Source: Pomphorhynchus laevis (taxonomy: Eukaryota > Acanthocephala > Palaeacanthocephala > Echinorhynchida > Pomphorhynchidae). Taken from it: a stretch of 64,000 nucleotides of DNA. Numbering within the stretch: the first letter of the stretch is position 1; every line of letters begins with the position of its first letter. Shown here piece by piece: positions 3,403 through 63,870 of the stretch. The position numbers and the translations under genes were made by a program. Below the pieces are notes generated by a model. It was not told the origin of the DNA and searched no databases. It saw nothing but the letters and a program-made list of their open reading frames with translations. The stretch is from assembly GCA_012934845.2 (NCBI GenBank), contig WNNJ02001104.1, positions 248,001-312,000 of the forward strand, given 5' to 3'.

Positions 3403-3840
3403 TCACAATTGATAGACCAAATCTCTATCCAACTCCAGCTTGAAGCCATGAATATTAGAGTTAACGGTCGTATCTGAAAGTTGATTCCACACCGATACAA
3501 CCCTCTGAGCTAAGAGTGAGAAACGAATATGACATCGGCGCATTGTACGAAGCATTAGGGAACGTCCGCTTAGTGAGGGATGATCTCGCAATTTCAACAA
3601 GTGAGGCAAAGGATTGACATTAGTATACAAAATTTGCTATATGAAGCACATATCAGCACGAATTCGCATGAACTTGAGACTATGCATTTTTAAATAACTA
3701 AGTCTATCACAATAATCTAAATGGCTGGCAGTACCGACTAGTCTCGTGGCGGGGCGATAAACAATTTCAAGGCAATTACATTTTCCCTCAATAATTGGGT
3801 AACATGATGGTGAAGCATTTAAAAGTAGACTTAGAATCAA
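3403..3840 (-). pseudogene. LINE (CR1-like) C-terminal tail fragment
   Basis: Two adjacent minus-strand frames, 67 and 75 codons, give the typical post-RT tail of CR1/L2-type elements: an AT-RLVGTASHLDYCDRLSYL block, a LHSLKFMRIRADM block, then R-MLRTMRRCH-RFSLLAQRVVSVWNQLSD and a final FKLELDRDL. They are split by one stop near 3634. No catalytic RT motif remains. This is a dead 3' fragment of a separate LINE copy. Confidence 0.75.
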
Positions 3841-28247: not shown

Positions 28248-28518
28248 GCCGAAACCTGATAGCATAGCAGTTCCTCCTGATGACCTCTAATTCTTATTCT
28301 GATACAACGCCTGTTATTTATTAGTCAATTCATAAAAATGACGTTTATTTTAAATTTTATTTTTTATTTTTATTTTTTAACTTGATTAAAATTATAGAAA
28401 ATCTAAAAACAATTATTAATTTTATTATTTAATTATTAAATTTTGATTTAGCATTATTATGTTTTGTTTATTTTATAATTATATAACAATACGTAGACTC
28501 AGTTAGCTGATTTAATTT
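28248..28518 (+). repeat. PLE 5' terminal repeat (pLTR)
   Basis: Starts GCCGAAACCTGATAGCATAG and ends GTAGACTCAGTTAGCTGATT plus TAATTT. Identical by eye to 31765-32035. Just before it, CCTGATA (28241-28247) repeats part of its own start. Confidence 0.85.
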
Positions 28519-28719
28519 GTTCTACTGACATGTTATTATTGACCTGTGGACTTTGTTTTCCCGGTAATATGACCTCTGTCAGAAATACTGAAACTATGTA
28601 TTATTGGTTACGACTTTACTATTATTTTTTCTTATTTTCAAACAAGCATGAATTATTAATTCTTAAAAAAGGGAGAAGTTTGCATCCCAAGGTGTTTACA
28701 CTTTAAAATGTAAACTGCT

Positions 28720-28912
28720 TCACGTGATCACGTTTAAGAGACCAGGTAATGGCCAATAGCTAGGTCGCGTAGCGCGTGGAGTGAAGGTGGTAGATCTTTA
28801 TAGATCTTGTTCCAGCCTGCAACCGCCTTAAGCAGGGCAGCCCCCTGTCAGATGCTGCTGGATGGCCCGTTGTAAGTTTAGTCTGAGTCAACTAAACTAG
28901 GTGGCGACACCG
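28720..28912 (+). promoter_or_regulatory. Structured, GC-richer 5' leader of the PLE
   Basis: In an otherwise A/T leader this stretch is GC-rich and full of inverted repeats. GTTTAGT/ACTAAAC (28876-28897, loop CTGAGTCA) is followed two bases later by GGTG-GCGA-CACC (28900-28911), a GNRA-capped hairpin, then GAAAAAG. AGATCT repeats around 28793-28810. The ORF starts about 40 bases downstream, and in-frame TAA and TGA codons sit between. It may be an internal promoter, a translation element or part of a ribozyme; I could not build a full hammerhead from it. Confidence 0.45.
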
Positions 28913-28948
28913 AAAAAGCAACGTTAAAAATTATGACTTAAAAGTTAC

Positions 28949-31663
28949 ATGTACTCAACAATATTGGAAAAATACGTAAGTACTAATGATTTCAATTTTA
29001 GATCTTTTAAATGTAACAGAAAAAATTGTATAGTTTGTGATGTTATAAATAATAATAATTGTATCGTAAGTAATACGACAAACAAATGTTTTTCATTAAA
29101 TATTAATAATAATTGTAACTGCAATACCGCAGGTGTAGTGTATCTAATACAATGCACATGTGGATTGCAATATATAGGAAAAACATATCAAATGTTAAAA
29201 ACTAGGTTTAGGCAACACATATATAATATACAGCATAATAGTCAAACTATATTTCATAAACATATGAGATTAATAGGACATGATATTAAAAACTGTAAAT
29301 TATTTATTTTAGAACATATTATCGAAGAAAACATTTCAATATTAAATCAAAAACTATTAGAAAAAGAAGATTTTTGGATTAAAACGCTTAATTCCATGTA
29401 CCCATTAGGATTGAATGACGTGGTACAAGGAATTGGCAGAAGTAGTATAATACATAATAAACAACTATATTATAATAATCCGGTTAAACGCAAACCAAGA
29501 AGTCATGGTGATAAAAGGAATAGGAAAAATAGAGTTAAAAATATTAAAAAAGATATGTATATAAATGAACAATTAGAAATATTAAAACAACTTTTAAGTG
29601 ATAATAAGCTAAAAGATCTTTATGTAAATATAAGAAGTTTTTCTAAAGATATCATATGTTCAATAAATCAAAAATTAATTAACGACTATGATAGGCTAAG
29701 TTGTATAATAGACAGTTATTGTAATACAAAATACTATAATCGTACAATAAATGTAAATAATAACAATAGAAAATATACATTAACCATAAACTTCATTAAT
29801 AAATGTATAGATAACATAAATATAGCCGGACTTTTAAATAATTCTAAAAGTAAAGAAATAATAGGGTCAGATTTAAGTAAATATATTCCTAAAATAAGGT
29901 ATAAACTCCTACCACCATTAGGACGAAAAATTTGTAATTATAATAAAGAATTAAAATCAATATGTAACGATAATATTAGAAACATAATGGAAACAGAATG
30001 CAATTGTAAAAGTCTTAGTTTTGATAAAATAAATGAACATATATGTACCCATAATCTAGAATTAATTGAAAATTGTGAATTAAGAAAGCTGCTATCGAAA
30101 GGGTATAAATATAGATTAAATAACAACAACGACAAAAATAAAATATACAGTTCGTTATATAATAACTTAAATGATTACTTTAGTAAGCTGATTAATAGTG
30201 AAAGCTCGAATATATCTAAGATAAAAATTTGGAAAGATTATATATTTGATAAAATTAAAAATAAAATGAAAATAACAAACAATTATAAAAGGAAAGATAA
30301 AATTAATAAAGATATGTATAAAGAACTTACTAAATTAAAGGATAACTATATAATAACAACTATTGATAAAGCTAGTAATAACTTTGTCTTCATATGCAAA
30401 AAGCTTTATTATGATATACTAATGAAAGAGGTTAATTCTAATGATTTAAATGTAAATCCAGCATATGAACGTAGTGAGTTGAGTTTAGAATCAATTATTA
30501 CAAGTCACTGTTCTATAATGGATAAAAAGGGTATAAAGGTTGAATTAGATAATAAAACTATACCTATATTATATTGGAATCCAAAATTACATAAAAATCC
30601 AATAAAACCTAGGTTCATATGTAGTGCGTTTAAATGTACATTAAAACCACTTTCTGTTTATATGAATAAAATGCTTAAAGTAATTAAAGCACATTTTAAA
30701 AAATATTGCAAGGTAATCGAAATTAATACTGGTATAAAACACTATTTCAGTATTAATTCTACAAAAGAATTTTTAGAACAGACAAAAGGAATAAATTTTC
30801 AAAATATAAATACATACGATTTTAGTACGCTTTATACAAATCTAGATTTAGTAGATATTAAAGAAGCGTTAGTAAAATTAATTAATCTTATATTCGGAAA
30901 AAGATATACATATATATGTTATAATAATTATAACGCCTATCTAACAAAAATTAAACCATCAAATAAATATAAATATATGGATAAAATTGAATTAATAGAA
31001 TCCTTAAATATTTTGATAAATCAAAATTATTTAAAAGTAGGGACATCTATATTTAGACAAGTAAAAGGTGTTCCAATGGGTGGTAATAGTAGCCCAATTA
31101 TAGCTGACTTGTTTTTAAGCTTTATAGAATATGAATTTGTTCATAACTGTGTAAAAACTAAATCTAAACAATATAAATATATGAAATATATGTTTCGATA
31201 CATTGATGATATATGTGTATTTAATTCTAATAATTTTTATTCAATTAGTGAGCACATTTATCCAGAAAGCCTTATTCTTAACAAAACCAATATTAATGAT
31301 AAAGAAGGTGTATATCTAGATATGAACATTAAATTAACATTAACTAAAACTACTATTAATTTATATCGTAAAGATGACATATTTAAATTTACAAGAAACA
31401 TATTTTTGCATGAGCATTCATGCATACCATATAATATAAAATATAATACATTAAATAATGAAATTTTAAGAATTGCAACAATATGTAATGATATTGGCTT
31501 TCTTAAAAATCATTTAAATAATTTAATAGATACATATTTTAAACTAGGTTACTATAAAAATAACATCAAGCAGAAAATAGTAAAATATATAAATCAACAC
31601 AATAATATAAAGAATAAATTTAAACTCTTAAGTGGCAAATTTTTATGGATGAATAATAAATAA
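28949..31663 (+). CDS. PLE polyprotein: Zn-finger, GIY-YIG endonuclease, reverse transcriptase (904 aa)
   Basis: Uninterrupted frame. Residues 22-30 form C-x4-C-x2-C, with more Cys at 56, 58, 69 and 71. The GIY-YIG core follows (GVVYLI at 62-67, YIGKT at 75-79, Arg86/88 and His90, then EKEDFWI around 138-144). A basic linker (PVKRKPRSHGDKRNRKN) leads to a long helical region. The RT has YWNPKLHK and PRFICSAF, motif A DFSTLYTNLD near 624, motif B GVPMGGNSSPI near 710 and motif C FRYIDDI near 749-755. All expected acidic residues are present. Coding-strand bias is strongly A-rich. In the family this protein nicks DNA and primes cDNA synthesis at the target. In-frame stops upstream make ATG 28949 the likely start. 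Confidence 0.9.
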   Translation: MYSTILEKYVSTNDFNFRSFKCNRKNCIVCDVINNNNCIVSNTTNKCFSLNINNNCNCNTAGVVYLIQCTCGLQYIGKTYQMLKTRFRQHIYNIQHNSQTIFHKHMRLIGHDIKNCKLFILEHIIEENISILNQKLLEKEDFWIKTLNSMYPLGLNDVVQGIGRSSIIHNKQLYYNNPVKRKPRSHGDKRNRKNRVKNIKKDMYINEQLEILKQLLSDNKLKDLYVNIRSFSKDIICSINQKLINDYDRLSCIIDSYCNTKYYNRTINVNNNNRKYTLTINFINKCIDNINIAGLLNNSKSKEIIGSDLSKYIPKIRYKLLPPLGRKICNYNKELKSICNDNIRNIMETECNCKSLSFDKINEHICTHNLELIENCELRKLLSKGYKYRLNNNNDKNKIYSSLYNNLNDYFSKLINSESSNISKIKIWKDYIFDKIKNKMKITNNYKRKDKINKDMYKELTKLKDNYIITTIDKASNNFVFICKKLYYDILMKEVNSNDLNVNPAYERSELSLESIITSHCSIMDKKGIKVELDNKTIPILYWNPKLHKNPIKPRFICSAFKCTLKPLSVYMNKMLKVIKAHFKKYCKVIEINTGIKHYFSINSTKEFLEQTKGINFQNINTYDFSTLYTNLDLVDIKEALVKLINLIFGKRYTYICYNNYNAYLTKIKPSNKYKYMDKIELIESLNILINQNYLKVGTSIFRQVKGVPMGGNSSPIIADLFLSFIEYEFVHNCVKTKSKQYKYMKYMFRYIDDICVFNSNNFYSISEHIYPESLILNKTNINDKEGVYLDMNIKLTLTKTTINLYRKDDIFKFTRNIFLHEHSCIPYNIKYNTLNNEILRIATICNDIGFLKNHLNNLIDTYFKLGYYKNNIKQKIVKYINQHNNIKNKFKLLSGKFLWMNNK

Positions 31664-31790
31664 TATACTTTGCATTAGAATAAGATACTAGATAGTTATT
31701 TCAGAGGAAATACATCATTAGCATGTATTTGGCCCCGCTGCTATGTTGGGTAGAGGAGTTAGGGGCCGAAACCTGATAGCATAGCAGTTC
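31664..31790 (+). other. PLE 3' structured region crossing into the 3' pLTR
   Basis: AAATACAT/ATGTATTT forms a hairpin near 31706-31730. GGCCCC (about 31731-31736) can pair with GGGGCC (31762-31767), while CTGCTATG just after the first can pair with CATAGCAG inside the pLTR (about 31780-31788). These interleave, as in a pseudoknot. Similar pairs are seen in copies at 63340-63390 and 63590-63645. Confidence 0.5.
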
Positions 31791-32035
31791 CTCCTGATGA
31801 CCTCTAATTCTTATTCTGATACAACGCCTGTTATTTATTAGTCAATTCATAAAAATGACGTTTATTTTAAATTTTATTTTTTATTTTTATTTTTTAACTT
31901 GATTAAAATTATAGAAAATCTAAAAACAATTATTAATTTTATTATTTAATTATTAAATTTTGATTTAGCATTATTATGTTTTGTTTATTTTATAATTATA
32001 TAACAATACGTAGACTCAGTTAGCTGATTTAATTT
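31765..32035 (+). repeat. PLE 3' terminal repeat (pLTR)
   Basis: Same sequence as 28248-28518. It is followed directly by unrelated sequence (CTTGAATTCCG), which fixes the right boundary of the element. Confidence 0.85.
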
Positions 32036-35114: not shown

Positions 35115-35544
35115 TGCGGTAGTAAATTGATTTAGGTTAATCAAAGCGTAGTTAATCAGAAGGCTAATTCTATCTGATTAGGAATCATGCAATTTTTCTA
35201 TCTCCGAGATAGAAAATATCTGATATTTCAATCGTTTCTCTTTTTATAACATCAGCAAAGCATCACCAGTCTGCTTGTGTACATTATCAAATGTCACCAC
35301 CTATATGTATCAATACAAAAGAAAAACGATTGCAAAATAACTTGTCGATCAATATCTTTCGAATTGTGATGCATAGGGAGAAAAAGTGCTTGAAAGAAAA
35401 TTGTCGGCCAGTACATTTGCATTTTTAATACAGTCAAGTTTTTACTCCTTCAACGCATTTTAGCGTTAAAGGAGTTTCAGAGGTCAATATAGTTTGTGCA
35501 AAGTAAATACATTTCGTATTTAGAGACTTCAATAACTAGACGAA
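35115..35544 (+). repeat. Unclassified repeat U1, copy 1
   Basis: GATTTAGGTTAATCAAAGCG ... GTATTTAGAGACTTCAATAA is repeated at 39083-39262 with the middle (about 35180-35440) absent there. It contains a hairpin CTCCTTCAACGC/GCGTTAAAGGAG near 35447-35476. It ends exactly where the minus-strand PLE copy begins. Confidence 0.6.
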
Positions 35545-38132
35545 TCAAATCAGCTAACTGAGTCTACGTATTTAATATAATTATAAAATAAACAAAACAT
35601 AATAATGCTAAATCAAAATTTAATAATTAAATAATAAAATAAATAATTGTTTTTAGATTTTCTATAATTTATATCAAGTTAAAATAAAAAATTGAAATTT
35701 AAAAAGTCATTTTTATGAATTGACTAATAAATAACAGACGTTGTATCAGAATAAGAATTAGAGGTCATCAGGAGGAACTGCTGTGCTATCAGGTTTCGGT
35801 CCCTAACTCCTCTACCCTTTCTGCTTGATAGTATTTTTATAGTAACCTAGTTTAAAATATGTATCTATTAAATTATTTAAATGATTTTGAAGAAAGCCAA
35901 TATCATTACATATTGTTGCAATTCTTAAAATTTCATTATTTAATGTATTATATTTTATATTATATGGTATGCATGAATGCTCATGCAAAAATATGTTTCT
36001 TGTAAATTTAAATATGTCATCTTTACGATATAAATTAATAGTAGTTTTAGTTAATGTTAATTTAATATTCATATCTAGATATACACCTTCTTTATCATTA
36101 GTATCGGTTTTGTTAAGAATAAGGCTTTCTGGATAAATGTGCTCACTAATTGAATAAAAATTATTAGAATTAAATACACATATATCATCAATGTATCGAA
36201 ACATATTTCATATATTTATATTGTTTAGATTTAGTTTTTACACAGTTATGAACAAATTCATATTCTATAAAGCTTAAAAACAAGTCAGCTATAATTGGGC
36301 TACTATTACCACCCATTGGAACACCTTTTACTTGTCTAAATATAGATGTCCCTACTTTTAAATAATTTTGATTTATCAAAATATTTAAGGATTCTATTAA
36401 TTCAATTTTATCCATATATTTATATTTATTTGATGGTTTAATTTTTGTTAGATAGGCGTTATAATTATTATAACATATATATGTATATCTTTTTCCGAAT
36501 ATAAGATTAATTAATTTTACTAACGCTTCTTTAATATCTACTAAATCTAGATTTGTATAAAGCGTACTAAAATCGTATGTATTTATATTTTGAAAATTTA
36601 TTCCTTTTGTCTGTTCTAAAAATTCTTTTGTAGAATTAATACTGAAATAGTGTTTTATACCAGTATTAATTTCGATTACCTTGCAATATTTTTTAAAGTG
36701 TGCTTTAATTACTTTAAGTATTTTATTCATATAGACAAAAAGAGGTTTTCATGTACATTTAAACGCACTACATATGAACTGAGGTATTATTGGATTTTTA
36801 TGTAACTTTGGATTTCAATATAATATAGGTATAGTTTTATTATCTGATTCAACCTTTCATACCCTTTTTATCTATTATAGAACAGTGACTTGTAATAATT
36901 GTTTCAAAACTCAACTCACTACGTTCATATGTTGGATTTACATTTGAATCATTAGAATTAACCTATTTCATTAGTATATCATAATAAAGCTTTTTCCATA
37001 TGAAGACAAAGTTATTACTTGCTTTGTCAATAGTTGTTATTATATAGTTATCCTTTAATTTAGTAAGTTATTTATACATATCATTGTTAATTTTATCTTT
37101 CCTCTTATAATTGTTTGTTATTTTCATTTTATTTTTAATTTTATCAAATATATAATCTTTTCAAATTTTGTCTTAGATATATTCGAGCTTTCACTATTAA
37201 TCAGCTTACTAAAGTAATCATTTAAGTTATTATATAACGAATTGTAAATTTTATTTTTGTCGTTGTTATTATTTAATCTCTATTTTTTTACCCTTTTGAT
37301 AGCAGCTTTCTTAATTCACAATTTTTAATTAATTTTAGATTATGGGTACATATATGTTCATTTATTTTATGAAAATTAAGACTGCAATCGCATTCTGTTT
37401 CTATAATGTTTATAATATTATCGTTATATATTGATTTTAATTCTATTTAATTACAAATTTTTCGTCCTAATGGTGGTAGGCGTTTATACCTTATTTTTGG
37501 AATATATTTACTTAAATTTGACCCTATTATTTCTGTACTTTTAGAATTATTTAAAAGTCTGGCTATATTTATGTTATCTATACATTTATTAATGAAGTTT
37601 ATGGTTAATGTATATTTTCTATTGTTATTATTAACATTTATTGTACGATTATAGTATTTTGTATTACAATAACTGTCTATTATACAACTTAGCCTATCAT
37701 AGTCGTTAATTAATTTTTGATTTATTGAACATATGATATCTTTAGAAAAACTTCTTATATTTACATAAAGATCTTTTAGCTTATTATCTCTTAAAAGTTG
37801 TTTTAATATTTCTAATTGTTCATTTATATACATATCTTTTTTAATATTTTTAACTCTATTTTTTCTATTCCTTTTATCACCATGACTTCTTGGTTTGCGT
37901 TTAACCTGGATTATTATAATATAGTTGTTTATTATGTATTATACTACTGTCAATTCCTTGTACCACGTCATTCAATCCTGATGGGTACATGGAATTAAGC
38001 GTTTTAATCCAAAAATCTTCTTTTTCTAATAGTTTTTGATTTAATATAGAAATGTTTTCTTCGATAATATGTTCTAAAATAAATAATTTACAGTTTTTAA
38101 TATCGTGTCCTATTAATCTCATATGTTTATGA
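35545..38132 (-). pseudogene. Second copy of the permuted PLE, 5' truncated and broken
   Basis: Reverse-oriented and very close to the 28.2-32.0 kb element (only scattered amino-acid differences seen, e.g. KTNIND to KTDTND). It starts inside the GIY-YIG domain (HMRLIGHDIKNC, 38122), missing about the first 104 codons. Open pieces: 37901-38122, 37447-37833, 36188-36730 (RT motif A and B) and 35812-36204 (motif C onward). A two-base loss at about 36190-36204 shifts frame just before FRYIDD. The last codons and most of the 3' region up to the pLTR are deleted near 35815. The terminal repeat remains at 35545-35800. Confidence 0.85.
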
Positions 38133-38192
38133 GATTTAAGTTAAGTTTGAACTGATAAAGTCATTGTTTTTCATTTACAAAAAAGAAAACAA

Positions 38193-42662: not shown

Positions 42663-43340
42663 ATGGACCCAGTCGGAAACGGATTGGCGAACGTTGATTA
42701 TGCACGATATCTGCAGCCAAGTAAACTTACAATAGACACAGAAGACCCAAACGGAGCGGATATTTGGAAACATTGGCTATCAACATTCGAAGCGTTTATC
42801 GAACACATCGGAGCTCCGTGTGAGATTCGATTAACGTTACTGCGTAATTACGTTTCTCCTCAAATTTTCAAGTCAATTCAACAACTGTCTGATTATGCAG
42901 AAGCTATCAAGACGCTTCGATCGATGTTTGAGCGACCGACCAATGTCATTTATGCTAGATATATACTATTCGCGAGGAGACAAGAAGATGCAGAAGATAT
43001 TCAACACTACACTAATAGTTTAAAACAACTAGCCTCAGAATGTAAGTTCGAAGAAGTATCGGCACAAGATCACCGAGATCAGGCAATTCTAAATGCGTTC
43101 ATAGCGGGTATTTCCTCAAAGAAAATTAGAGAACGTTTACTTGAAAACTGTACCTTAACACTAACAGACGCTTTTGAAATTGCAAAAGCTATGGAAAGTG
43201 CGGAAAAACGTTCAACGGTAATCGAAGGATCTTATTATCGACTAGCTCATGTTTCCGACAGCAGAAAGGAAGAGGCGGCAGATCAACTGGCACAAATGAA
43301 TGATAGAATAGTTGCAACAATCAAAAGTAATTGGAAGTGA
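42663..43340 (+). CDS. Gypsy Gag (capsid), 225 codons, ended by TGA
   Basis: Starts MDPVGNGLANVDYARYLQPS 38 bases after the LTR. WKHWLSTFEAFIEHIG and the FIAGISSKKIRERLLE region are typical retrotransposon capsid helices. The TGA at 43338-43340 falls in the same frame as the nucleocapsid and pol that follow, at the place where related elements usually have the first Cys of the zinc knuckle (next residues FFCG). It could be a nonsense mutation, readthrough or a recoded codon. Confidence 0.85.
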   Translation: MDPVGNGLANVDYARYLQPSKLTIDTEDPNGADIWKHWLSTFEAFIEHIGAPCEIRLTLLRNYVSPQIFKSIQQLSDYAEAIKTLRSMFERPTNVIYARYILFARRQEDAEDIQHYTNSLKQLASECKFEEVSAQDHRDQAILNAFIAGISSKKIRERLLENCTLTLTDAFEIAKAMESAEKRSTVIEGSYYRLAHVSDSRKEEAADQLAQMNDRIVATIKSNWK

Positions 43341-44675
43341 TTTTTTTGTGGAAGTCAATCAAAGCATAGTCGAGAATCTTGTCCGGCAAAAAATTCAATT
43401 TGCCATAAATGTCAGAAGGAAGGACATTTTGCAAGAGCGTGTCGATCTTCACAATTCGGTCGTAATAAATACTCTGCGTGCATTTCTTCAATACTGTCTG
43501 ACCGAAAAGCTGTAGACCAAATATCCATTTGCAACAAAAGAGTAGAGTGTTTGTTTGACACAGGGAGTTGTTATAGTTTTATTCGAACTGATATTGTGAG
43601 TAAGATGAAATTGCCTATCGTCAGAGATATACGGCCTATTACAATGGCCACTAATCGCTTCAAGACTTTAACTAAAGTCCATGTTACTACGTCCATCATC
43701 TACAAGTCCCAAATTTATAAAAACATTATATTTCATGTTCTGGACGACTTATGTACCGAAGCAATATTGGGGATGGATTTTATGAATGAGCATAAGAGTT
43801 TCAAACTAAAATTGAATGGTCCTAGAAACGAATTGGTAATTGCTGCTTTGCGACCTATAGATTTCAAGCCAGTTCGACCATTTTCACATCTAAATGAACA
43901 TTGCATTCCTATTGCAACGAGGTCTCGCCGGTATAATCCAGCCGATCGTGATTTTATTCGATCGGAGGTTCAGAAGTTATTGAAAGATGGGATTATCGAA
44001 CCTTGTATTTCACCATGGCGAGCTCAAGTGGTAGTTACGTGCTCGGAGAGACATAAACGCAGGCTTGTTATTGATTACTCACAAACGATAAATAAATATA
44101 CATTGCTGGATGTCTATCCTTTGCCAAACTTACAAGATCTTGTGTATGAAATTAGCAAATACAAATGGTTTTCTACAATTGACTTACAGTCTGCTTATCA
44201 TCAAGTTCCTCCACATCCAGACGATAGACTATATACTGCCTTTGAAGCAGATGGAAGATTATATTGCTTTGCGAGATTGCCCTTTGGTTTGAAGAATGCA
44301 GTGTCATGCTTTCAGCGATGTATGGATCACATGATTGAAACAAATGAATTAAAAAGTACATTTGCCTATCTAGATAACATTACAATTTGCGGAATGACCC
44401 AACAAGAACACGACGAAAATCTGGGCAAATTCAACAGTGTCGCTACCAAGTGCGGGCTCACAATGAATACAACTAAATGTGAATTTAACAAGAAAGAAAT
44501 AAAGCTTCTCGGCTACTTAATTTGTCAAGGAGTACTGAAACCAGATCCGGACAGATTGCAGGCTTTACATGAACTCCCCCCCCCTACGATGTCAGATCCT
44601 TACAACGAAGTATTGGACTCTTTGCTTACTACTCGTCTTGGATACCAGAATTTTCACAAAAGATTGAATTCTTGA
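43341..44675 (+). CDS. Gypsy nucleocapsid, protease and reverse transcriptase (part)
   Basis: In frame with gag. A CCHC knuckle (CHKCQKEGHFARAC) is near 43405. Protease: LFDTGSCYSF near 43550 and AILGMDF near 43760. RT: LLKDGIIEPCISPW, LVIDYSQTINKYT, WFSTIDLQSAYHQ (motif A), FARLPFGLKNAVSCFQ (motif B) and FAYLDNITICG (motif C). Motif C is YLDN rather than YLDD, a variant I believe is common in this sub-family. The frame runs off at 44675; the true continuation is in the next frame after a run of nine C at 44576-44584. Confidence 0.85.
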   Translation, partial: FFCGSQSKHSRESCPAKNSICHKCQKEGHFARACRSSQFGRNKYSACISSILSDRKAVDQISICNKRVECLFDTGSCYSFIRTDIVSKMKLPIVRDIRPITMATNRFKTLTKVHVTTSIIYKSQIYKNIIFHVLDDLCTEAILGMDFMNEHKSFKLKLNGPRNELVIAALRPIDFKPVRPFSHLNEHCIPIATRSRRYNPADRDFIRSEVQKLLKDGIIEPCISPWRAQVVVTCSERHKRRLVIDYSQTINKYTLLDVYPLPNLQDLVYEISKYKWFSTIDLQSAYHQVPPHPDDRLYTAFEADGRLYCFARLPFGLKNAVSCFQRCMDHMIETNELKSTFAYLDNITICGMTQQEHDENLGKFNSVATKCGLTMNTTKCEFNKKEIKLLGYLICQGVLKPDPDRLQALHELPPPTMSDPYNEVLDSLLTTRLGYQNFHKRLNS

Positions 44676-45019
44676 GAAACGCTTCATTCCCTATGAACGC
44701 TGAATCAAAACTGTCATTTGAAAAGCTTAAAGCAGATATTGCGAGTGCTTCTTTATACCACATCAATAACGCTCAAGCGCTAACAGTCGAGACAGACGCT
44801 TCTGAAACGTGCATTGCGGCTACACTGAACGGAGACGGTCGTCCGATTGCGTTTTTTTCAAGAAAACTTTCTGTAAGCGAGCAGAGATGGGCAGCAATCG
44901 AGAAAGAGGCTTTAGCCATAGTGGAATCCCTTATTAAGTGGCGACATTTTCTTATCGGAAGGCATTTTAAAATCATCACAGACCAAAGATCAGTTAGTTT
45001 TATATATTCAATCAACTAA
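44585..45019 (+). CDS. Gypsy RT connection and RNase H
   Basis: In a different frame from the preceding segment, starting after the C9 run: SLQRSIGLFAYYSSWIPEFS then ETDASETCIAATLNGDGRPI, IAFFSRKLSV, IEKEALAIVESLIKWRHFL and IITDQRSVSFIY, which are RNase H landmarks. The frame ends at TAA 45017-45019. The expected continuation (QLNGSK) is one frame away, implying a one-base loss near 45010. Confidence 0.85.
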   Translation, partial: YDVRSLQRSIGLFAYYSSWIPEFSQKIEFLRNASFPMNAESKLSFEKLKADIASASLYHINNAQALTVETDASETCIAATLNGDGRPIAFFSRKLSVSEQRWAAIEKEALAIVESLIKWRHFLIGRHFKIITDQRSVSFIYSIN

Positions 45020-46335
45020 ACGGAAGCAAGATAAAATACGACAAAATACAACGTTGGAAAGCAGAATTGGCCAATTACGATTTTGAAATATTCTACCGCC
45101 CGGGATCTTTGAATGGACCAGCAGATACCTTATCCAGAATATGTGCTACTTCCAATTTCGATAGAGGATTACGAGAACTTCACGAATCATTATGTCACCC
45201 CGGTGTACGACGGTTAACTCATTATGTCAGATCACGGAATCTTCCATTCTCAGTAAATGATGTGAAAAATATTTGTGAACGTTGTGAAGCTTGTAAATTT
45301 TCTAAGCCTCGATTTTCAAATACCTGTACGGCTCATGTAATGAAAGCTACCTGCCCTTTTGAGCGATTATGCATAGATTTCAAAAAACCATTACCGAGTA
45401 ATTCAAGATCCCGTTTCCTCCTTGTTGCGATTGATGAGTATAGTCGGTTTCCTTTTGCCTACGCGTGCCCCGATATGTCTGCTAAAACTGTGTGTCATTG
45501 TTTGGACGAAATATTTGCTATTTTTGGTTGTCCAGAATATATTCATTCGGATAGAGGTACGTCGTTTCTGTCATCGGATGTCAGACAATTTCTCAGTGAG
45601 AGAGGAATCGCTAGCAGTTCCACAACACCGTACAACCCAAGAGGTAACGGGCAATGCGAACGATACAATTCAACAATTTGGACAGCTATAACTACCACGT
45701 TACGAAGTGAACGAATGTCTATTCATCAGTGGCAAATAATATTACCAAGAGCACTCAATAGCATAAGGAGTCTTTTATGTACTTCAACCAACTACACACC
45801 TCACGAACGGATATTTTCTTACCCCAGAAAGAGTAATGAAGGCAAAACGTTTCCAAAATGGATGACCGATGGTGCATCTGTACTTGTCCGGAATCATAGA
45901 CGTGAATCGAAATATGAACCAATAGGTTGTCCAGCTAAACTTGTGACTGCTAACAACAAATACGCTATCATCGAATATCCTAATCAACGACAAGGTGCGG
46001 TTTCTTTAAGGGACGTGGCTCCCGGTTTCGATATCGGACAACGGTTGTCAGGTGGAGATAGCTGCCAAAATCTAATGATAGAAGATCATGAATGTACGAA
46101 CGATACATCACAACTTACAACTACTACTAAAGATGATATTGAAAGCAGCTATAACCCTGATACCAGCTACAGCGACGATAAAACTGTGAGTACGGACGAC
46201 GATACTTTAAACGATACTTTCAAAATATCCGACGAGAAAGGAAATGAAATTCTGCAGAGCAACGAAAGACCCGTGCGAAATAAAGCTACTCCCGCGTATC
46301 TACGAGATTATGTTTGGCGGAGGAGAATGTCGTGA
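45020..46335 (+). CDS. Gypsy integrase and C-terminal tail
   Basis: Open from about 45010. ANYDFEIFYRPGSLNGPADT closes RNase H. The integrase zinc-binding region (HESLCHPGVRRLTHYVR ... CERCEACKF) is followed by the DDE core: CIDFKK, HSDRGTSF and NGQCERYN supply Asp, Asp and Glu. A TNYTPHERIF block and a basic, Ser/Thr/Asp-rich tail end the protein. The stop codon TGA (46333-46335) lies within the first bases of the 3' LTR, and the last codons are also the polypurine tract. Confidence 0.9.
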
Positions 46336-52667: not shown

Positions 52668-53426
52668 CTAGTCTCTTAAGTTTTCGCTTTGTTGCAGGGG
52701 GCCATGAAAGACAACCACCTGCGATTTAGCGGAGTTTAAAATAAGATTGGACTTGGGTAACTGGTCTCTTAATCTTAAATAGAATCGGCTGATGTCCGAG
52801 ACTACGTATTCGCACCTGCGTCCAGAGAACAGGGATGTGGTATCATCTGCGTATACCACTAGACGTTGTTCGCATTTAGATATTTTAAAGAACTCAATGG
52901 AAGCAGCAAGATATAAGATTGGAGAAAGAGGTGATCCTTGAGGCACACACGTAATAGGGTAGAACTGACGCGAATCAGGGTCGACTTCATAATAGAATCG
53001 CTTAGTGTACAGCAGTATCTCCACCCTTTTAGCAATTCTCACAGGCAACCCAAGGGACCTGAGAGAAGAGATAACAAAGGGAATGGAGATGCGGTCAAAT
53101 GCAGCAGAAAAATCAAGGAAAACAGCCACAGCAAGTTGATGACTATTCACCTGACAAAACTGATGCACTTCATCTACAGCCGAATGGACAGAGCGACCTT
53201 TGACTAACCCATGGAAACCTGGTAGGATTAAGTTTTGCCTACTTAGATGATCGCGGATTTTACGCGCAAGCCCTTTTTCTGGGATCGACACGAGAAAATT
53301 CTGAATCGAAATGGGCCGCAGGTCTTTAGGACAAGAGACCGGTTTATTCTTTGGAATAAAAACACGTCTACTAATGTTGATGCCGGCCACATCGGAAGGG
53401 GTGGCTAAAAGAATTGTGACGGCCAC
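52668..53426 (-). CDS. Family J reverse transcriptase, 252 open codons
   Basis: RRVFIPKNKPVSCPKDLRPI, GFHGLVKGRSVHSAVDEVH, motif A VAVFLDFSAAFDRISI, VPQGSPLSPILYLAASI (motif B), RLVVYADDTTSLF (motif C with both Asp) and LILNSAKSQVV. All catalytic motifs are intact within this segment. Upstream fingers and downstream thumb are in other frames. Target-primed reverse transcription is the known role in this group. Confidence 0.85.
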   Translation of the reverse strand: MAVTILLATPSDVAGINISRRVFIPKNKPVSCPKDLRPISIQNFLVSIPEKGLARKIRDHLSRQNLILPGFHGLVKGRSVHSAVDEVHQFCQVNSHQLAVAVFLDFSAAFDRISIPFVISSLRSLGLPVRIAKRVEILLYTKRFYYEVDPDSRQFYPITCVPQGSPLSPILYLAASIEFFKISKCEQRLVVYADDTTSLFSGRRCEYVVSDISRFYLRLRDQLPKSNLILNSAKSQVVVFHGPLQQSENLRD

Positions 53427-54139: not shown

Positions 54140-54703
54140 CTAATGGAGCAGTAATAAGTCAAGGAGTGAATTTGTTGATGTGCAATGAAAGGTGGGTGAC
54201 GGTAGTTTGTGAATAAGGTAATCGTTCCTGGCTCCGCGGAGTGCTGCATTAATCCAACGACCAGTTTTGTCGTTGAAGTCACCAAGTACCATGTCATAGC
54301 CGCTATCAATAATCCTATCCAGGAGGTCACAGTTCGTGTGAATCTCATCTGGACGGATGTAGACATTGGCTAGACTGAGGTGTTTACCGTTCTTACAGAG
54401 TAAAATTACCAAACAAGATAGGGCTGGACAAGAATGGTTGAGTAGAAGGGATGAACTTAAGGTGCATTTAACTAGGGTTAAAAGACCTTGTGATGAAGAT
54501 GAGTGAGGGGTTAAGTACGGAGTATAGTGGGAACAAATGTGCTTAGAGATGTATCGAGTAATGTTCTGGGGGAGGCGGATAGACTGCGTCTCCTGAAGGA
54601 CTATAACATCTGCATCTCTACCAGATAGAAGTCTATGCGCAGAAGCTCCTCCCGAATTCCACTGAAGGATATTCAGTGAAAAAGGCTTACGATTATTCTG
54701 CAT
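54140..54703 (-). CDS. Family J endonuclease domain, 187 open codons
   Basis: LNILQWNSGG, VIVLQETQSIRLP, SLANVYIRP, MVLGDFNDKTGRW and a final TSTNSLLDLLLL correspond in order to the N, E, Y, D-N and S-x-D positions of AP-type LINE endonucleases. The ATG at 54703 (MQNNRKPFSLNI) is a plausible ORF2 start because the same start is found at 27032. Confidence 0.8.
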   Translation of the reverse strand: MQNNRKPFSLNILQWNSGGASAHRLLSGRDADVIVLQETQSIRLPQNITRYISKHICSHYTPYLTPHSSSSQGLLTLVKCTLSSSLLLNHSCPALSCLVILLCKNGKHLSLANVYIRPDEIHTNCDLLDRIIDSGYDMVLGDFNDKTGRWINAALRGARNDYLIHKLPSPTFHCTSTNSLLDLLLLH

Positions 54704-62219: not shown

Positions 62220-63870
62220 AAAATAAATAAATTTATCCAGGTAGTTTCATTCTTAATAAAACCAATACAAATGGGTTTATTAAGAAAAGAAACCAAGAAG
62301 ATATATTCCTAACCTTACGAAACTTCAATAGTAACTGCCATTATTTACAAGAAACAAATTTTAATTTACAAGAAACATATTTTTACATTATCATTCATGC
62401 GTTCCATATAATATTAAATATAATTTTAATATAACTTTATGTTTCGATATATTGATGATATATGTGTATTTAACTCTAATATTTTTTGTATCAATAAGTG
62501 AATAAATTTATCCAGGTAGTTTCATTCTTAATAAAACCAATACAAATGGGTTTATTAAGTTCGCCGCGCCCCCTCCTTTATCACATTCAAACATCTCCGT
62601 TCACACCTTCTCGACACATGATTTACATATTTGTTTTGTTGTGGTCATGTAAGTGTGCGCTGGCACGCATTTGCCACGTTAAAATGTATTTTTTTAATCA
62701 AAATTATTCAGGTAGCCATATTCTTAAAAAAACCAATATTGATGATAAAGGAGGTATATATATGAACACTAAATTAATATCAATTAAAACTGCTTATAAT
62801 TTATATCGTAAAGATGACATATTTAAATTTATGAGAAACCTATTTCTTGTAGCGACATTGGCTTTCTTCAAAAATCATTTAAATAATTCAAAAGATATAT
62901 ATTTTAAACTTGAATAATTTAATAAATATTTTAAACTAGGTTACAAAAAATAAAAACAAATAAAAAATAGTTAAATATATAAATCAACACATAATTATTA
63001 AAAATAAATAATATTTTTATAAATCAATACAGATTGAATTATGAGGAAAATTAAATACGATTAACCACCGAATTGGTTAGAAGAGAAAACATTTGAACAA
63101 TTTCTAAATAGACAATTTAATAGATACATATTTAAAACTAGGTTACTATAAAAATAAAACCAAATAGAAAATAGTAAAATATATAAATCAACACAATAGC
63201 GTTAAAAATAAATTTAAAATCATTAGCGAAAAATTTTTATGGATGGATAATAAATAATATACTTTGTATTAGAATAAGATACACTAGATAATCAAATTTC
63301 ATCAGAGGTAATACATCGTTAGGTTGTATTTGGCTCCGCTGCTATGTTGTGTTGAAGAGTAGAGGCCGAAACCTGATAGCAGTAACTCCTGATGACATCT
63401 AATTCTTATTGTAATACATCGTCCGATATTTATTAGTCAATTCATAAAAATCATTTTTATTGTAAATTTCAATTTTAAAAAATATCATGAAAATTTTTAT
63501 GGATGGATAATAAATAATATAATTTGTATTAGAATTAGATACTAGATAATCAAATTTAATCATAGGAAATACGTCATTAGCATGCATTTGTAACCACTGT
63601 TATGTTAGGTCGAGTAATAGAGACCGAAGCCTGATAGCAGTAACTCATGATGACATCTAATTCTTATACTGATACAACGTTTGTTATTTATTAGTCAATT
63701 TATTAAAATTGACTTTTATTTTAAATTTAAATTTCAAATTTTAACTTTATAAATTATATAAAATTTTAAATAAACAATTATTTATTATTTAATTATTTAA
63801 TATTTATTTATCAGTATTTTCAATTTATAAATAGAATAAAATATGTAGACTCAGTTAGCTGATCTGAATT
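62220..63870 (+). mobile_element. Nested cluster of PLE 3' fragments
   Basis: Several partial copies in one orientation. 62221-62420 and 62440-62558 hold RT-tail pieces (FRYIDDICVFN at 62437; TTTATCCAGGTAGTTTCATT present twice). 62710-62917 has LKKTNIDDKGGIYMN and LYRKDDIFKFMRN. 63100-63480 is a C-terminus plus a partial terminal repeat, and 63485-63870 is a second 3' end with its own terminal repeat ending ATGTAGACTCAGTTAGCTGA. Diverged from the 28 kb copy and dead. An L2-like 3' end interrupts it at 62559-62697. Confidence 0.75.
62559..62697 (+). mobile_element. L2-like LINE 3' end inserted in the PLE cluster
   Basis: TCGCCGCGCCCCCTCCTTTA, then the family tail and hairpin 62641-62677 (GTGG ... 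GTGTGC-GCTG-GCACGC ... GCCAC) and TTAAAATG. PLE sequence lies on both sides, so this is a 5'-truncated insertion of about 140 bases. Confidence 0.7.

Follow-up and report, generated by a model that had tools for sequence, protein, structure and literature searches.

An intact, apparently recently active retrotransposon family of the permuted Penelope-like class in a contig of Pomphorhynchus laevis

Background

Penelope-like elements (PLEs) with an endonuclease (EN) in front of the reverse transcriptase (RT), the N-terminal EN+ or permuted class, have a CxC motif in the linker and an insertion in fingers domain (IFD) in the RT, and are not known to carry the canonical hammerhead. Naiad PLEs of this class were reportedly described by Craig et al. 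in 2021, such elements are said to be widespread in invertebrates, and a CCHH motif is reportedly present in Naiad nucleases and lacking in those of Chlamys. Naiad elements reportedly tend to insert at microsatellites, a non-defining trait; Chlamys PLEs are found in algae, plants and protists. Here we analysed a window of 64,000 nucleotides (nt) of Pomphorhynchus laevis DNA (contig WNNJ02001104.1, positions 248,001 to 312,000), in which a first-pass annotation had proposed an apparently intact PLE of this domain order. The element is very probably a full-length, recently inserted copy of a permuted (EN-RT, N-terminal-nuclease) Penelope-like retrotransposon, and it adds a new family, intact and apparently recently active, to the class described in 2021. 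The same annotation had called the lineage one where the group is little studied, a claim left unsupported given a host that looks like an invertebrate.

As in Naiad elements, the nuclease precedes the RT, the linker has a CxC motif and the nuclease a Cys/His motif; pseudo-long terminal repeats (pseudo-LTRs), tandem insertions, the lack of a hammerhead and an invertebrate-type host are further likenesses. Unlike Naiad elements, it has no microsatellite beside the 3′ end: by a crude criterion applied to complete copies of the open reading frame (ORF), a long homopolymer or microsatellite was found within 30 nt past the 3′ end in none of 23 flanks, three of which were a further unit. It also differs in having no in-frame TGA in the ORF, and hence no selenocysteine, in an A+T-rich ORF, and in relatives that are 25–34% identical save one twin at 96%. 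The likeness to Chlamys is the permuted order. Canonical Penelope/Poseidon elements, represented by Anolis PAc as described in excerpts of PMC11167929, share a single ORF with GIY-YIG and telomerase-like RT domains, pseudo-LTRs and tandem arrangement, whereas the nuclease of PAc is C-terminal and a hammerhead is present. Athena, which had been cited as another example of a C-terminal GIY-YIG, does not belong there, since a part of PMC3846280 describes Athena elements as devoid of a nuclease.

Results

The ORF is open throughout all 904 codons and encodes a protein (P0001) that keeps the GIY-YIG residues and the RT aspartates, as had been read from the sequence; YIDD was confirmed at residues 751–754 and the nuclease was found to extend over residues 22–160. 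Searched alone, P0001 gave zero Pfam matches and chance-level NCBIfam (E 0.65) and PDB (E 0.22–0.45) matches only. Relatives and structure were needed for the domain calls. A protein search yielded 48 proteins: P0002 was identical to P0001 at 96% over the full length, and the others lay in the range given above. One of the 48, P0049, has the canonical order with a C-terminal nuclease. In an alignment of 33 rows the GIY-YIG residues, the CxC motif (C351, C353) and the RT aspartates were all invariant, and Pfam recognized GIY-YIG in 31 and RVT_1 in 24 of these rows. A nuclease profile made from 31 rows, with P0001 and P0002 left out, matched residues 22–159 of P0001 (127.5 bits) and C-terminal residues 728–851 of P0049 (90.2 bits); none of 500 shuffles was among the best eight matches listed. 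By BLASTP the N-terminus of P0001 paired with the C-terminal nuclease of P0049, and RT with RT, so the permutation was seen directly. Family profile, structure and BLASTP thus agreed on GIY-YIG before RT; the profile check suggested for the ORF was positive by family profile and structure and negative by Pfam on P0001 alone.

An AlphaFold2 model of P0001 had a mean predicted local distance difference test score of 84.5. Telomerases made up the best 14 rows of a VIA-align search with this model (alignment starts 263–359, ends 806–904) and likewise the best 15 rows of a Foldseek search; the telomerase-like match covered residues ~319–903. Residues 60–160 of the model matched I-TevI by VIA-align. 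The distance between RT motifs A and B′ was 80 residues in the query and 78–90 in 44 rows, versus 57 in P0049, the sole canonical row measured, in a comparison based on motif spacing. C69, C71, H90 and H105 of the nuclease were invariant in 33/33 rows and aligned with Cys/His of P0049; we take them to be the published Naiad CCHH four. By eye, the His equivalent to H90 was missing in two canonical elements (L032 and L039), so this motif is less uniform than the definition above suggests. Judged by the definitions given above, the Cys/His motif, the lack of a hammerhead and the host type point to Naiad-type as the most likely subgroup. Four relatives of one clade (P0004, P0016, P0029 and P0041) carried a ubiquitin C-terminal hydrolase domain after the RT (E 2e-19 to 1e-30), and among these Pfam found GIY-YIG in P0004 and P0016 only. 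No relatives were found in viral_contigs for A1 or for P0049.

In an RT tree of 46 rows, the hit set of the query was split at 100/100 from three canonical PLEs (P0049, and L033 and L039 of the same genome), and P0001 and P0002 were nested within 9-row (94/86) and 18-row (99/89) sets of the hit set. A tree constrained to unite P0001/P0002 with L033 and L039 to the exclusion of P0049, the only inside-canonical placement tested, was rejected by the approximately unbiased (AU) test (p-AU 2.9e-8). The RT tree proposed as a check therefore did not put the query inside the three canonical PLEs. The canonical side of this tree consisted of those three rows, and named Naiad or Chlamys sequences were not among its rows. 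The “N-terminal” rows were drawn from the hit list, with the nuclease Pfam-checked in the 33 aligned rows, and some were RT pieces without an N-terminus; L037 (motif A missed by the pattern) and P0005, P0013, P0033, P0046 and P0048 of the 48 proteins were left out. Neither mark of canonical C-terminal EN+ PLEs was seen: the nuclease was not behind the RT, and the RT fell outside the canonical rows tried.

In the same genome, 52 of 8866 candidates were scored as canonical-type PLE matches, loci L032–L039 among them. L032–L036 and L039 formed two families with a GIY-YIG motif behind the RT; L037 and L038 looked like a third, in which a nuclease was not seen in the open stretch. Genomic COX1 pieces required TGA as Trp, and for one of them the top score came from reading AGA/AGG as Ser (203.0 bits with code 5 versus 197.4 with code 4 and 197.7 with code 13), as in the mitochondria of many invertebrates. 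A fungal host, entertained at first for the richness in A+T, was set aside on this result. By its mitochondrial code the host is probably an invertebrate; the COX1 pieces carry breaks and may be nuclear copies.

The genome search covered 249.4 Mb in 3242 contigs, and the best 50 of 28251 first-look candidates were scored. These had 97–100% protein identity, and 35 of the 50 were without internal stops. Five copies on different contigs reached the self score (identical protein), and their 3′ flanks differed, indicating separate insertions. The ORFs of 28 studied copies were 99.3–100% identical and indel-free, except one without its first 13 nt. L006, which coincides with part of L028, was excluded from the substitution and locus counts, leaving 27 distinct loci. 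Counting each change once gave 70 distinct changes, of which 27 were silent, 40 were replacements and 3 introduced a stop. Relative to the neutral expectation, the ratio of replacement to silent changes stood at 0.46 (p 0.002), a depletion owed to changes found in more than one copy (0.23, p 0.001); the substitution pattern fits selection on source copies plus recent neutral decay. The suggestion of a recent or active member was supported by the copy count and divergence proposed as a check: stop-free copies and near-identical copies with different flanks support a young, abundant and recently active element. Exact 24-mers were counted 202 times for the junction, 488 for the 5′ untranslated region (5′UTR), 859 for the nuclease, 3722 for motif C and 2225 for the non-coding 3′ end, and backward controls gave 0. 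The rise from the junction to motif C is the gradient that target-primed reverse transcription should leave through 5′ truncation.

The 3′ ends of the copies themselves defined the unit boundary: of the 27 loci, the 23 without a downstream unit all ended at unit positions 3514–3517. The unit start was reached in 14 loci, and 14/14 ran on into an upstream unit; the other 13 were truncated, 12 within the 5′UTR (positions 36–402) and one at 444, which lies 14 nt inside the ORF. Genome-wide, 177 of 306 exact unit starts were preceded by an exact 3′ end. For the first 20 listed of the remainder, 19 followed a 3′ end diverged by our threshold and one did not. At L046, L048–L050, L055 and L059, only about the last 25–30 nt of the 3′ end were kept upstream of the unit start, a stretch that may be the counterpart of the PLE “tail”. 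Two copies, L007 and L011, had pieces of the unit's 3′ part in inverted orientation next to their 5′ side; complex tandem and inverted insertions are known from other PLEs, according to a part of PMC3846280.

In the window, the two pseudo-LTRs (271 nt) were 100% identical, as the first-pass annotation had it (Table 1). The G+C content was 40% in the 5′UTR (28522–28948) versus 22% in the ORF, and folding of 28671–28948 beat shuffles (z -2.6; 1/200 shuffles equal or better). With E limits of 5 and 10, Rfam searches detected no hammerhead, and the sole rows listed, mir-932 and SNORA61, scored far below gathering thresholds. The circularised unit contained one CTGANGA site and zero cores with GAAA, so again a hammerhead was not found. 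An HDV-like (hepatitis delta virus-like) ribozyme, considered because of a resemblance of the 5′UTR, was rejected: a custom descriptor gave 0 matches on both strands, and shuffles gave 0 in nine of ten cases and 1 in the tenth.

Table 1. Positions in the window of the element, its parts and related copies
Feature	Position	Strand	Basis or remark
Complete PLE unit, 3517 bp	28519..32035	+	Repeat spacing; boundary from 3′ ends of copies
Left pseudo-LTR	28248..28518	+	Final 271 nt of truncated upstream unit, head-to-tail join
Right pseudo-LTR	31765..32035	+	3′ end of unit, finishing GATTTAATTT, without poly(A)
5′UTR	28519..28948	+	
ORF, 904 codons	28949..31663	+	GIY-YIG nuclease, then RT
Cys-rich start and GIY-YIG nuclease domain	29012..29428	+	Residues 22–160
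Linker CxC motif	29999..30007	+	C351 and C353; invariant in 33/33 rows
RT core	30344..31438	+	Residues ~466–830, limits by eye
Candidate insertion in fingers	30896..30988	+	Between RT motifs A and B′, residues ~650–680
RT motif C	31199..31210	+	YIDD 751–754
Second copy, 5′-truncated, with internal deletion	35543..38142	-	96.6% over 2337 nt, plus 287-nt 3′ piece at 92%
Older fragments of related copies, partly tandem-duplicated	62354..63870	+	~79–89% identity

Pieces of a Ty3-type LTR retrotransposon lay at 42663–46335, with protease/RT and integrase ORFs and a weak gag match below the Pfam cut-off. Non-LTR-type ORFs with RVT_1 and endonuclease/exonuclease/phosphatase matches were located at 599–2035, 52668–53426 and 54140–54703, all on the minus strand.

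Discussion

It is improbable that the element represents a deep new branch of permuted PLEs lying outside both Naiad and Chlamys. The query and P0002 do sit on a long branch (1.45 and 1.23 in two trees) and share only 25–34% identity with other relatives, but they fall within the 9-row and 18-row sets, and the A+T bias of the ORF can lengthen a branch. That the element is a Chlamys-type rather than a Naiad-type permuted PLE seems quite improbable: the domain order and the CxC motif would be shared, but Chlamys nucleases are reportedly without the CCHH motif, whereas the four Cys/His residues here are invariant and align with those of P0049, and the mitochondrial code of the host looks animal. 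Chlamys elements are on record from a brown alga, Ectocarpus, according to a part of PMC12477816. It is extremely improbable that a canonical PLE moved its nuclease to the front secondarily and independently. Many canonical-type matches do exist in the same genome, but the RT joins 42 further rows of the N-terminal set with 100/100 support, and the canonical placement tested was rejected.

For the replication of this permuted PLE we propose that the GIY-YIG domain would cut host DNA and that the telomerase-like RT would prime from the cut. On an RNA that covers more than one unit, copying would begin internally and at a single place, the unit boundary (...GATTTAATTT), and the RT would then travel a variable distance, often one full round and into the next unit. 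Such run-on would leave a truncated upstream unit and so give rise to the pseudo-LTRs. The folded part of the 5′UTR may slow the RT, as judged from small numbers of loci chosen for a complete ORF. The fixed 3′ ends, together with the run-on into an upstream unit, suggest that the boundary acts as an RT start on multi-unit RNA and not as a transcript end. We give this internal-start mechanism somewhat less than an even chance. In PAc, reverse transcription starts internally in vitro, at sites that coincide with the ends of its genomic copies, and hammerhead mutants were unaffected in insertion in vitro (both in excerpts of PMC11167929); given the latter result, a PLE doing without a hammerhead is less surprising. 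Permuted PLEs as a class might replicate from multi-unit RNA, with reverse transcription beginning at a single fixed point inside each unit and with neither a 5′ end of their own nor the hammerhead of canonical pseudo-LTRs, a generalization we lean slightly against.

Several observations weigh against this picture. Among 23 loci, just two showed clear target-site duplications; one measures 68 bp and the other 164 bp, the latter being offset from the 3′ end by 32 bp and from the 5′ junction by 7 bp. Three of the 23 have a further unit as their right flank, which leaves 20 to judge, and a short duplication would escape detection. A 434-bp flank match (85%) at L016 was rejected as a target duplication and is a diverged repeat instead. 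The fixed 3′ end could be the 3′ end of an RNA rather than an internal start. The 3′-end 24-mer is rarer than the RT 24-mer, unlike a simple truncation gradient; non-coding DNA may diverge faster, or related families may share the coding 24-mer. The 28 studied loci were the best protein matches, which biases both divergence and truncation, and for single-copy changes the depletion of replacements was not significant (0.64, p 0.16). Finally, with two canonical rows, a tree that makes the query their sister was not rejected (p-AU 0.106); this test addresses the basal branching of the N-terminal group, a different question from placement inside the canonical PLEs.

Conclusions

This permuted PLE belongs to an already described group, of which it is a good but unsurprising example. 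A canonical Anolis PLE is called the first active one in vitro in a part of PMC11167929 (2024). The permuted element described here is intact, high in copy number and apparently young, and many of its copies are free of stops, which makes it a practical choice for biochemical work on its class; since canonical-type PLEs occur in the same genome, both architectures can be compared within one host. Where reverse transcription begins is concretely predicted by the fixed 3′ ends and by the absence of a free 5′ end from the studied copies. The element contributes a good source copy for biochemistry, together with structural grounds for proposing internal initiation among permuted PLEs.
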